This document shows positions 19,618 to 23,455 of a stretch of DNA of 64,000 nt, one piece after another. The DNA comes from Hyphomicrobiaceae bacterium (lineage in GTDB: Bacteria > Pseudomonadota > Alphaproteobacteria > Rhizobiales > Aestuariivirgaceae). The number at the start of each line of letters is the position of its first letter. The stretch's first letter is position 1. Made by a program: the position numbers and the translations under genes. The stretch is from assembly GCA_900298995.1 (NCBI GenBank), contig OMIC01000039.1:62001-126000 (forward strand). The letters are read 5' to 3'. The notes under the pieces are model-generated. The model did no database searches and was not told the DNA's origin. It saw only the letters and a program-made list of their open reading frames with translations.

Positions 19618-20523
19618 TCAGGCGAGAACCGCCCGCGGCATGCGGCAGGCTACCGAATAGGCCGGGTTGAACACATTGGCGACATCATAGCGCACCTGCT
19701 GGCCCATCACATGGCTGGCGGTCACCGCATCGAGGCCATGAGCGGCGATCAGCCAGTCGAGCATCTCGGTGGTGGCGTGCTGCAGCGCCTGGTCCAGCGG
19801 CCGGGCATTGCCGATGGTGAAGATCTCGTGCGCCGTCCGCCCGCGCGGCCAGCCGATCTTCTCGCCCTTCATCACGGTCAGGCTGAAGGTCACCTCCGCG
19901 GCGGTTTCGATGCCGGTGCCCACGATCTCGCCATCGCCCTGACGGGCATGAACATCCCCGAGGAAGAACAGCGCGCCCGGCACGGCCACCGGGAACATCA
20001 TCTCCACGCCTGCGGCGATGCGGCGGTAGTCCATGTTGCCGCCATGCCGACCGCTGGTCGCGGTCGAGATCGCCTGTCCGAGATCAGGCGCCACGCCGAG
20101 GCAGCCGATCATCGGCTCCACCGCCACCGACCAGTCCGCAAGTGCGGGCGGCGGCGCGGCGAGCCGTGCGCGGCCGGCTGCGGCATCGATCAGCCACTCC
20201 GTCTTGCGCCGCTCGGGAAGGCGGGCGAGGGCCTGCGGGTCCATCACGGTGGGGCTCAGCACGTCATAGGTCCAGCCGGTGGCGCGGGTCATGCGGATCT
20301 CGTGAATGCTCACCAGCAGCGCGTCGCCGGGTTCGGCGCCGGTCACGAAGAACGGGCCGGTCATCGGGTTGGGCCGCACCGCGCGCTGTGTGCCCATGTG
20401 GTCGAAGCCATGGGCATCGACCGTCGCCGCCGCCACCGTGTCGCCGCTGGGGATGGTGAGGACGGGCGGATGGCTGCCGATGCTGTTCCAGAACTGGCCG
20501 GGCGCGAAGCGGCGGATGCTCAT
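19618..20523 (-). CDS. acetamidase/formamidase family amidohydrolase
   Basis: Hydrolyses short amides (formamide, acetamide) to ammonia and the acid. The 301-residue product matches the FmdA_AmdA fold: GFDHMGTQRAV and FVTGAEPGDAL early blocks, GVAPDLG, the RHGGNMDYR metal/substrate block, and FFLGDVHARQGDGE. The ORF track adds 82 codons upstream that belong to the overlapping regulator gene. The true start MSIRRFAPGQFW overlaps that gene's stop (ATGA). Co-translation with a cobalamin-binding regulator is unusual and suggests that amide use is under its control or shares its promoter. Confidence 0.85.
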   Translation of the reverse strand: MSIRRFAPGQFWNSIGSHPPVLTIPSGDTVAAATVDAHGFDHMGTQRAVRPNPMTGPFFVTGAEPGDALLVSIHEIRMTRATGWTYDVLSPTVMDPQALARLPERRKTEWLIDAAAGRARLAAPPPALADWSVAVEPMIGCLGVAPDLGQAISTATSGRHGGNMDYRRIAAGVEMMFPVAVPGALFFLGDVHARQGDGEIVGTGIETAAEVTFSLTVMKGEKIGWPRGRTAHEIFTIGNARPLDQALQHATTEMLDWLIAAHGLDAVTASHVMGQQVRYDVANVFNPAYSVACRMPRAVLA

Positions 20524-21401: not shown

Positions 21402-21450
21402 CCCCCCATCCAGTCCGTGTGCCAGTCGTTTTCTGCTGGCCGGTTCTTCT

Positions 21451-21474
21451 GAGTGTCAATGATACGTGACACTC
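21451..21474. promoter_or_regulatory. palindromic operator matching the PpsR/CrtJ consensus
   Basis: GAGTGTCA-ATGATACG-TGACACTC is an eight-base perfect inverted repeat with an eight-base spacer. Read as TGTC-N10-GACA (21454-21471), it fits the TGT-N12-ACA recognition rule of PpsR/CrtJ exactly. It lies between the divergent B12 regulator (50 bases from its start) and the copper amine oxidase (104 bases), so it could control both. Confidence 0.7.
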
Positions 21475-21577
21475 TCCGGGCACGCAATCGGCCATTTTGC
21501 GGTGCAGCGGCGTTGCGTCTGCTTATGTCCAGGTTGCAGAGCGTGCTACATCGTCCGGCCATCAGGAGACCTTGCCC

Positions 21578-23455
21578 ATGACCAGCCACCCGCTCGACCC
21601 GCTCACCCAGGATGAAATCGCCCGCGTCCGGGACATCGTGCGCCGCGACGGCGGATTGAGTGCCGCCGCCTGGTTCGAGACCATCGCGCTCGAGGAACCC
21701 GCCAAGCAGGAGCTAGTGTCCGGCACGGCGCGGCGCGCGGCCTTCGTGTGCTGCTACGACCCCGCCTCGGGCGAGACCTGGGAGGGCGTCCTCGATCTCG
21801 CGGCGGGCCAGTTCCGCCGCTGGGCGGTGGCCAGGGGCATGCATGCGCGCATCGTCGCGGATGAATTCGCAGCGGGCGGTGAGGCGGCCAAAAGGGACCC
21901 GCGCTTCATCGCGGCCTGCGCCCGGCGCGGCATCACCGACCTCGACAGCGTGCTGGTCGAGGCCTGGGCGGCGGGCTATTTCGGCATTCCCGAGGAGGAG
22001 GGCCAGCGCATCGCCTATGGCCATTGCTGGGTGCGCAATGCCTCCGGCGACAATCCCTATGCGCGGCCCATCGCCAATCTCCATCCGGTCATCGACCTGC
22101 GCCGCATGGAGGTGATCCGGGTTGACGATTTCGGAATCGTGCCGCTGCCCCCCGACAGCGCCGACATCATCCAGCCCGTCACCCGCACGGACCTGAAGCC
22201 GCTCGAGATCACCCAGCCCGAAGGCCCGAGCTTCACGGTCGATGGCCATGCGGTGCGCTGGCAGAACTGGCACATCCGCGTCGGCTTCCATGTGCGCGAC
22301 GGGCTGATCTTTCATGAGATCGGCTATGAGGACAAGGGCCGCATCCGCCCCATCATGCACCGCGCCTCCATGGCCGAGATGGTCGTGCCCTATGGCGATC
22401 CCACCGGCGGCAACTACCGTCGCAATGCTTTCGACACCGGGGAATATGGCGTCGGCCAGTTTCTCGACTCGCTCACGCTGGGCTGCGACTGTCTTGGCCT
22501 CATCCACTACTTCGACGGCTGGAGCCATGACTGGCAGGGCAACCCGAAGCTCATCAAGAACGCCATCTGCATGCATGAGGAGGATTTCGGCACGCTGTGG
22601 AAATTCACCAACTGGCTCACCGGCCAGGTGACGGTGAAGCGCTCGCGGCGGCTGGTCATCTCGTCGGTTTCGACCATCGGAAATTATGTCTACGGCTTCT
22701 TCTGGTATTTCTATCAGGACGGCACCATCGGCGTCGAGGTGAAGGCCACTGGCATTCCCTTCGCCTCGGCCCTGCCGGTGGGCGAGAAGCCGGCCTATGG
22801 CGCGCTCATGGCGCCGGGCATCGCGGCGCATGTGCACCAGCATGTCTTCTGCTACCGCTTCGACATGGCGGTGGACGGGCCCCGCAACAGCGTGAAGGAG
22901 GTGAGCTTCTCCGCCCTGCCCATGGGCGAGGCCAACCCGCATGGCAACGCCATCGGCATTTCCGAAACGCTGCTGGCAAGCGAGGCCGGCGCCTGCCGCG
23001 ACATCGATCTTGCCGCCCAGCGGTACTGGAAGGTGGTGAACCCCAATGTCGTCAACGCGCTGGGCGAGCATCCGGGCTACAAGCTGGTGCCGGGCGTCAA
23101 CGCCTTTCCCTATCAGCACCCGGACTCGCATGTCGGGCGCCGCGCGGGCTTCATGTATCACCATTTCTGGGCCACGCCCTTCGCGGCCGACGAGCTCTAT
23201 CCGGCAGGGACCTATCCCAACCAGCACAAGGGCGGCGACGGCCTGCCTGCCTGGACCGCGCGCGACCGCGCGCTCGTCAACGAGAATGTCGTGGTCTGGT
23301 ATGTGATGAACTACCACCACATGCCCCGCCCCGAGGACTGGCCGGTGCAGCCCTGCGTCTATGCCAATTTCCACTGGATGCCGGTGGGCTTCTTCGACGC
23401 CAATCCGGCGCTCGACGTGCCGTCGCCCAAGTCGAAATCGAGCTGTTGCTGCTGA
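21578..23455 (+). CDS. copper-containing primary-amine oxidase
   Basis: Oxidises primary amines to aldehydes with release of ammonia and peroxide, using copper and a topaquinone made from a tyrosine. Of 625 residues, D2/D3 domains come first, then the catalytic domain with the base aspartate in NAFDTGEYG, the cofactor tyrosine in TIGNYVYG (Y370), copper histidines in HVHQHVFCYRFD and a late YHHFWATPF. The residue after the cofactor tyrosine is Val371, where the family has Asp or Glu. No signal peptide is evident, so it is probably cytoplasmic. I use ATG 21578 with AGGAGA upstream, not the 27-codon-longer ORF. The C terminus ends in SSCCC. Confidence 0.9.
   Translation: MTSHPLDPLTQDEIARVRDIVRRDGGLSAAAWFETIALEEPAKQELVSGTARRAAFVCCYDPASGETWEGVLDLAAGQFRRWAVARGMHARIVADEFAAGGEAAKRDPRFIAACARRGITDLDSVLVEAWAAGYFGIPEEEGQRIAYGHCWVRNASGDNPYARPIANLHPVIDLRRMEVIRVDDFGIVPLPPDSADIIQPVTRTDLKPLEITQPEGPSFTVDGHAVRWQNWHIRVGFHVRDGLIFHEIGYEDKGRIRPIMHRASMAEMVVPYGDPTGGNYRRNAFDTGEYGVGQFLDSLTLGCDCLGLIHYFDGWSHDWQGNPKLIKNAICMHEEDFGTLWKFTNWLTGQVTVKRSRRLVISSVSTIGNYVYGFFWYFYQDGTIGVEVKATGIPFASALPVGEKPAYGALMAPGIAAHVHQHVFCYRFDMAVDGPRNSVKEVSFSALPMGEANPHGNAIGISETLLASEAGACRDIDLAAQRYWKVVNPNVVNALGEHPGYKLVPGVNAFPYQHPDSHVGRRAGFMYHHFWATPFAADELYPAGTYPNQHKGGDGLPAWTARDRALVNENVVVWYVMNYHHMPRPEDWPVQPCVYANFHWMPVGFFDANPALDVPSPKSKSSCCC

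Follow-up and report, generated by a model that had tools for sequence, protein, structure and literature searches.

A putative PpsR/CrtJ operator over the promoter of an orphan long-form AerR gene suggests separately controlled long and short AerR genes in Aestuariivirga

The question raised by this locus is what a palindrome of the kind recognized by the photosynthesis repressor PpsR/CrtJ might control when it is found between a gene for a B12-binding protein, followed by an amidase-family gene, and a divergently read gene for an amine oxidase. The window analysed here is a 64-kb stretch (G000:C39:62001-126000) of a 2.99-Mb genome of Aestuariivirga (Hyphomicrobiales); the contig scan for relatives gave genus-level ones only, and those of the same genus include A. 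litoralis KCTC 52945. The palindrome reads GAGTGTCA-ATGATACG-TGACACTC, and both its position and its TGTC-N10-GACA content are exactly as first described. Its core, TGTCA-N8-TGACA (TGTCAATGATACGTGACA, positions 21454-21471), fits the TGT-N12-ACA palindrome rule for PpsR/CrtJ operators. TGTC-N10-GACA occurs a single time within the window; because chance would give 0.78 occurrences per window, and 55 of 100 shuffled sequences contain one, the match by itself has no value as evidence. The site stands out from chance for three reasons: PpsR is encoded in the genome, such sites are concentrated on the photosynthesis contig, and the palindrome occupies an identical position in two other species.

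Table 1. Features of the divergent aerR2 and amine oxidase locus, in window coordinates
Feature	Position	Strand	Remarks
Candidate PpsR/CrtJ-type operator, GAGTGTCA-N8-TGACACTC	21451..21474	.	Exact palindrome, found at the identical position in G011 and G027
aerR2, long-form AerR/PpaA paralogue with B12-binding domain, 293 aa	20520..21401	-	Closest PDB entry is AerR of R. capsulatus
fmdA-like gene, acetamidase/formamidase family PF03069, 301 aa	19618..20523	-	Family match 99.7 bits
Primary (copper) amine oxidase gene, divergent	21578..23455	+	PRK11504, 849 bits against a cut-off of 651
Putative -10 element of the aerR2-fmdA promoter, TATCAT, inside the operator N8	21459..21464	-	TAT..T unchanged across the nine orthologous promoters
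Putative -35 element TTGCGT, 17 bp from the -10 element	21482..21487	-	TTGC invariant in nine orthologues

The repressor presupposed by the original prediction is indeed present: the genome encodes a PpsR (TIGR02040, 420.9 bits against a cut-off of 275.4, E 4.5e-126) whose DNA-binding helix, LGLSRQSLY.KL, matches that of PpsR from Roseobacter litoralis, and in which the cysteine adjoining the helix-turn-helix is kept (LCIE, as against MCIE in R. litoralis). Its gene is located on contig C26, together with two copies of reaction-centre proteins (PF00124), and is directly preceded by a gene for a second B12 protein, the cluster aerR. The statement that the window contains no photosynthesis gene was correct for the surroundings examined, the photosynthesis cluster being elsewhere in the genome. 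Pattern searches of the whole genome revealed six exact TGTCA-N8-TGACA sites, compared to one for the reversed-pattern control, and three of the six are found on the 88-kb photosynthesis contig (binomial p about 5e-4), one in front of bchG, one between crtE and crtD, and one in front of a BCD transporter gene. The window site is similar to these. A score matrix was derived from 12 sites taken as photosynthesis-cluster sites of the genus (for one or two of these, e.g., G013:C80, the assignment was made from the contig and the form of the sequence and not from a gene check), leaving the window site out. With this matrix the window site scored 20.5 bits, against 20.8-28.6 bits for the training sites and 14.5 bits for the next-best 18-mer in the window. 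We infer from these sequences that PpsR binds the palindrome, which would make it an operator for the genome's own PpsR/CrtJ repressor.

The B12 protein encoded on one side of the palindrome (denoted here as AerR2) had been proposed to be AerR/PpaA-like, and PDB matching, fold comparison and phylogeny all placed it inside that family. Its top PDB match is 7te2, R. capsulatus AerR (E 2.9e-15, profile 1.4e-21, fold E 1.8e-9). In R. capsulatus AerR, His145, Trp94 and Phe101 constitute the lower ligand and the cap (PMC9144470); in AerR2, H175 aligns with the lower-ligand His and E173 with the Glu found two positions ahead of it, W126 and F133 correspond to the Trp/Phe cap, and His64, a candidate upper ligand, is shared by 41 of 58 long forms. 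Phylogenetic analysis of 74 proteins united the ten from the genus in one clade (100/99) contained in an orphan clade (99/95), and AerR2 is nested among AerRs adjacent to ppsR. Further members of the orphan clade are the products of genes next to an FrhB/BciB-like gene (G096 and relatives), one protein each from G250 and G230, and one from Polymorphobacter. Almost all of the remaining relatives examined, drawn from 398 genomes of the order, adjoin ppsR. Since aerR2 is on contig C39, without linkage to ppsR and its own aerR on C26, it was classed as an orphan paralogue of the AerR/PpaA family. Judged by sequence, fold and tree, the flanking protein is a true AerR/PpaA relative, and by homology it would be expected to bind both cobalamin and PpsR.

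The gene was detected in 10 of the 37 genomes of the genus, including the window's own. If a phototroph is defined as a genome with a PpsR or reaction-centre match, aerR2 is present in 10/15 phototrophs and in 0/22 of the other genomes (Fisher p 9e-6, a value not corrected for kinship). This confinement to phototrophs bears on the notion that the palindrome is the site of some other dimeric regulator, for instance of the GntR type, acting on the local operon and resembling a PpsR site by coincidence. Such a notion draws on the fact that TGTC-N10-GACA is met about once per 64 kb by chance, and on the exact TGTCA-N8-TGACA sites also carried by non-phototrophic congeners (0-4 per genome). It is, however, quite unlikely, as no transcription-factor gene is adjacent and the window site is the same in kind as the photosynthesis-cluster sites of this genome. 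Orphan AerR genes were also observed in other Hyphomicrobiales (L099-L102 and L104), where they are located beside an FrhB/BciB-like gene or, in G250, near a BLUF-like ORF.

The position of the palindrome provides a clue to its probable target, as it straddles a conserved -10 box, 52 bp upstream of the aerR2 start codon. The leftward promoter is deduced from conservation, TTGC and TAT..T at a distance of 17 bp being common to 9/9 orthologous promoters; the -35 TTGCGT matches the sigma-70 consensus weakly, and a simple consensus promoter scan does not call the -10 element. The exact 18-bp site is found 52 bp before the start codon in the window's genome and in G011 and G027, that is, in three of the nine fmdA-linked orthologues. 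In the remaining six, the promoter elements are kept and the palindrome is missing, and control by this operator is therefore not universal. None of the three refuting outcomes named in the original prediction was borne out in full, although the palindrome, identically placed in two related species, is missing from 6/9 orthologous promoters. Because G011 and G027 pair in the tree, and AerR2 of the window clusters with the six palindrome-less orthologues (97/76, a branch that is not firm), one origin followed by one loss and two independent gains are both possible. A palindrome arisen by chance, with no regulatory role and with aerR2 expressed constitutively, would agree with the some 0.8 sites expected per window and with the absence from six orthologues, but it is highly improbable considering that the same distance and the same -10 box recur in three species despite diverged flanking DNA. 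In the leader, a scan reported an inverted repeat at 21421-21440, yet no consensus structure emerged from the nine leaders, and an RNA family search of the vicinity returned tRNA only, with no cobalamin riboswitch.

The gene on the other side does encode an amine oxidase, as predicted, and its model match exceeds the cut-off (Table 1). This gene, however, is adjacent to aerR2 only in the window's genome and in G011, and in six of the genomes with aerR2-fmdA no amine oxidase is close by. In G027, the contig begins in the 3' end of a tRNA-Ala gene about 110 bp from the operator, and the same tRNA-Ala lies beyond the amine oxidase in the window; therefore, the operator is present in G027 without an adjacent amine oxidase. 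As for the congeners, G014, G017, G021 and G026 carry their exact sites and their amine oxidase genes on different contigs, and in G025, which also has an amine oxidase, there is no exact site anywhere. On these three grounds the operator was assigned to aerR2-fmdA; the amine oxidase is weakly tied to it, and the simpler reading is that of control of PpsR's own partner.

These observations disfavor the most far-reaching claim of the original prediction, namely that PpsR and AerR2 jointly run the amine oxidase and a formamidase, with light, redox state or B12 controlling this module for nitrogen release and the operator serving both divergent genes. The operator does lie between the two genes, in an arrangement common to the window's genome and G011, fmdA would be co-transcribed with aerR2 according to gene order, PpsR-like sites (C33:6919 and C33:10375) flank a permease/homospermidine-synthase-like cluster, and in other species AerR-type proteins have effects on nitrogen and transport genes (PMC10734443, PMC6199135). 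Nevertheless, the palindrome covers the -10 box of aerR2-fmdA, the neighbor of the operator in G027 is a tRNA gene, the congener amine oxidases are devoid of the exact site, the sites at the permease cluster are not conserved, and the fmdA product is no proven formamidase. We accordingly regard such a module as unlikely. Among open-licence papers, nothing relevant was found linking PpsR or bacteriochlorophyll to amine oxidases.

The coupling of a formamidase to the B12 gene was likewise confirmed only in part. The overlap is real, the start of the fmdA-like gene lying across the stop of aerR2 (ATGA, 20520-20523), but the identity of the product holds at the family level only: it scored 58.8 bits against the NCBI formamidase equivalog model, whose cut-off is 500 bits. 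The order aerR2, fmdA-like gene and then an oppositely read DNA ligase gene is kept in nine of the ten aerR2 genomes. From this gene order, the simpler reading would be that fmdA is a co-transcribed passenger of aerR2.

A further clue is derived from the length of the two AerR proteins. AerR2 contains 125 residues ahead of the cap Trp and was modelled, with middling confidence (mean pLDDT 71, the N-terminal tail being of low confidence), as a disordered tail (residues 1-40), a helix (41-64), a four-helix cap and a Rossmann fold. By contrast, the ppsR-linked AerR is short in 8/8 Aestuariivirga genomes having the fmdA-linked form and a cluster copy that was found. It carries at most 64-83 residues before the Trp, except that in G035 the count is 106 from the furthest start codon and 64 from the first Met. 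The short cluster form is missing the N-terminal tail and the helix that bears the P-R-L motif, the Pro of which is found in 57/58 long forms. In G008, G017, G018 and G021, all of them without aerR2, the cluster AerR is long. The same pairing appeared independently in another genus, g38, with four genomes that combine a long orphan with a short, 232-234-aa cluster copy. Exceptions to this rule are G022, G230 and G250, which have an orphan and keep a long cluster copy. Short cluster AerRs arose in two lineages only, and in none of the 12 short forms counted is the missing helix encoded in frame; one of them (L035) gave a match in another frame that is unlike the helix. G412 and G193 (L187 and L188) were rejected as short forms and left out of this count because they represent frameshifts of long genes, by decay or assembly error. 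The cultured A. litoralis (KCTC strain) has the long/short pair and lacks the operator. All this suggests that long and short AerR, the products of one gene in R. capsulatus, are two separately controlled genes here.

The reading that we favor, and to which we assign a probability of about 0.68, is that a PpsR operator lies over the -10 box of aerR2-fmdA, placing the long AerR2 in a feedback loop with PpsR, and that the short AerR stays linked to ppsR, the two forms being encoded by two genes. It is based at the sequence level on the presence of PpsR and photosynthesis genes, the position and conservation of the operator, the membership of AerR2 in its family, and the long and short forms. Briefly, PpsR bound at the palindrome would cover the -10 box of the leftward promoter, and the aerR2-fmdA operon would be held down whenever the photosynthesis genes are. 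AerR2 carrying cobalamin, under light (or low oxygen), would then convert or relieve PpsR, allowing the photosynthesis genes and aerR2-fmdA itself to rise, with fmdA co-transcribed. Such a loop would exist in the three species having the operator (G000, G011 and G027), and the long AerR would be activating and the short ppsR-linked AerR repressing, from separate genes. The binding and repression by PpsR, the sensing of cobalamin and light, and the opposite activities are transferred to this model from the respective protein families. A wider proposal is that the activating long form, dependent on light and B12, and the repressing short form came to be separately placed genes by duplication and truncation at least twice in Hyphomicrobiales (in Aestuariivirga and in g38), and that in some Aestuariivirga the long form was put under PpsR, giving a feedback switch that includes the amidase-family gene; we advance it tentatively, at somewhat less than even odds.

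Each component of this model is already known, and the new part would be their combination: the operator on the partner gene, the orphan status of the long AerR and the shortening of the AerR linked to ppsR. With R. capsulatus AerR (LAerR and SAerR) and R. sphaeroides PpaA, AerR2 shares the B12 fold, the PGEQH lower-ligand motif and the Trp/Phe cap. The long AerR of R. capsulatus has a flexible tail and an extra helix ahead of its four-helix cap (PMC9144470), and both were likewise modelled for AerR2. Unlike those proteins, AerR2 heads an fmdA operon outside the photosynthesis cluster rather than adjoining ppsR. In R. capsulatus, LAerR and SAerR derive from one gene by way of an internal CTG start (PMC6199135), and the loss of one or the other has opposite effects, whereas here the long and short forms appear as two genes. 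It has also been suggested by others that R. sphaeroides replaced the short AerR through the duplication that gave AppA. We propose by analogy that the long/short split in these genomes may be comparable, with the differences that AppA has BLUF and SCHIC domains while AerR2 is a plain long AerR, and that the short form here is the ppsR-linked copy.

Regarding the operator, the half-site rule is that of CrtJ/PpsR operators of the TGT-N12-ACA type, such as those of bchC, and the lower CrtJ site of R. capsulatus bchC is a palindrome over the -10 box with the same geometry (PMC5362033). In contrast to bchC, the window site is a single palindrome and not one of a pair, and its target would be a PpsR partner gene and a metabolic gene instead of a pigment or photosystem gene. 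A member of the PpaA/AerR family acting beyond photosynthesis is HP1 (Rru_A0625) of Rhodospirillum rubrum, whose deletion alters nitrogen and stress genes (PMC10734443); HP1 is ppsR-linked and without a cobalamin domain, whereas AerR2 is unlinked and keeps it. The combination described above, including the feedback loop that would arise from a PpsR operator on the gene of a PpsR partner, was not found in the open-licence papers searched, which is weak evidence of novelty. The AerR isoforms of R. capsulatus act oppositely on one repressor and are hard to study apart because they overlap in one gene. In species with two separate genes, each form could be deleted and followed cleanly, and such species would show the rewiring of a B12 photoreceptor onto new operons.

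Several minor observations concern other sites and the flanking enzyme. An exact PpsR-type site (L009:6169-6186) is located about 130 bp beyond the 3' end of a DXS gene, off its promoter. The two sites flanking the permease/homospermidine-synthase-like cluster of this genome (L010:6919-6936 and L010:10375-10392) are high-scoring, and the cluster was considered as a conserved second amine target of PpsR and rejected, the sites being missing in other genomes with readable upstream DNA. In primary amine oxidases, the topaquinone consensus is N-Y-[DE]; the amine oxidase of the window and seven congener sequences covering the motif (L049-L054 and L059 among the loci) read T-I-G-N-Y-V at this position, and the remaining catalytic and copper motifs seem to be intact. 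Finally, in the non-phototrophic G014, the fmdA-like gene and the amine oxidase gene are separated by an ORF (L049:4396-5436) with no NCBIfam match; by eye, its product is like a histone-deacetylase/acetylpolyamine amidohydrolase, which hints at polyamine breakdown.
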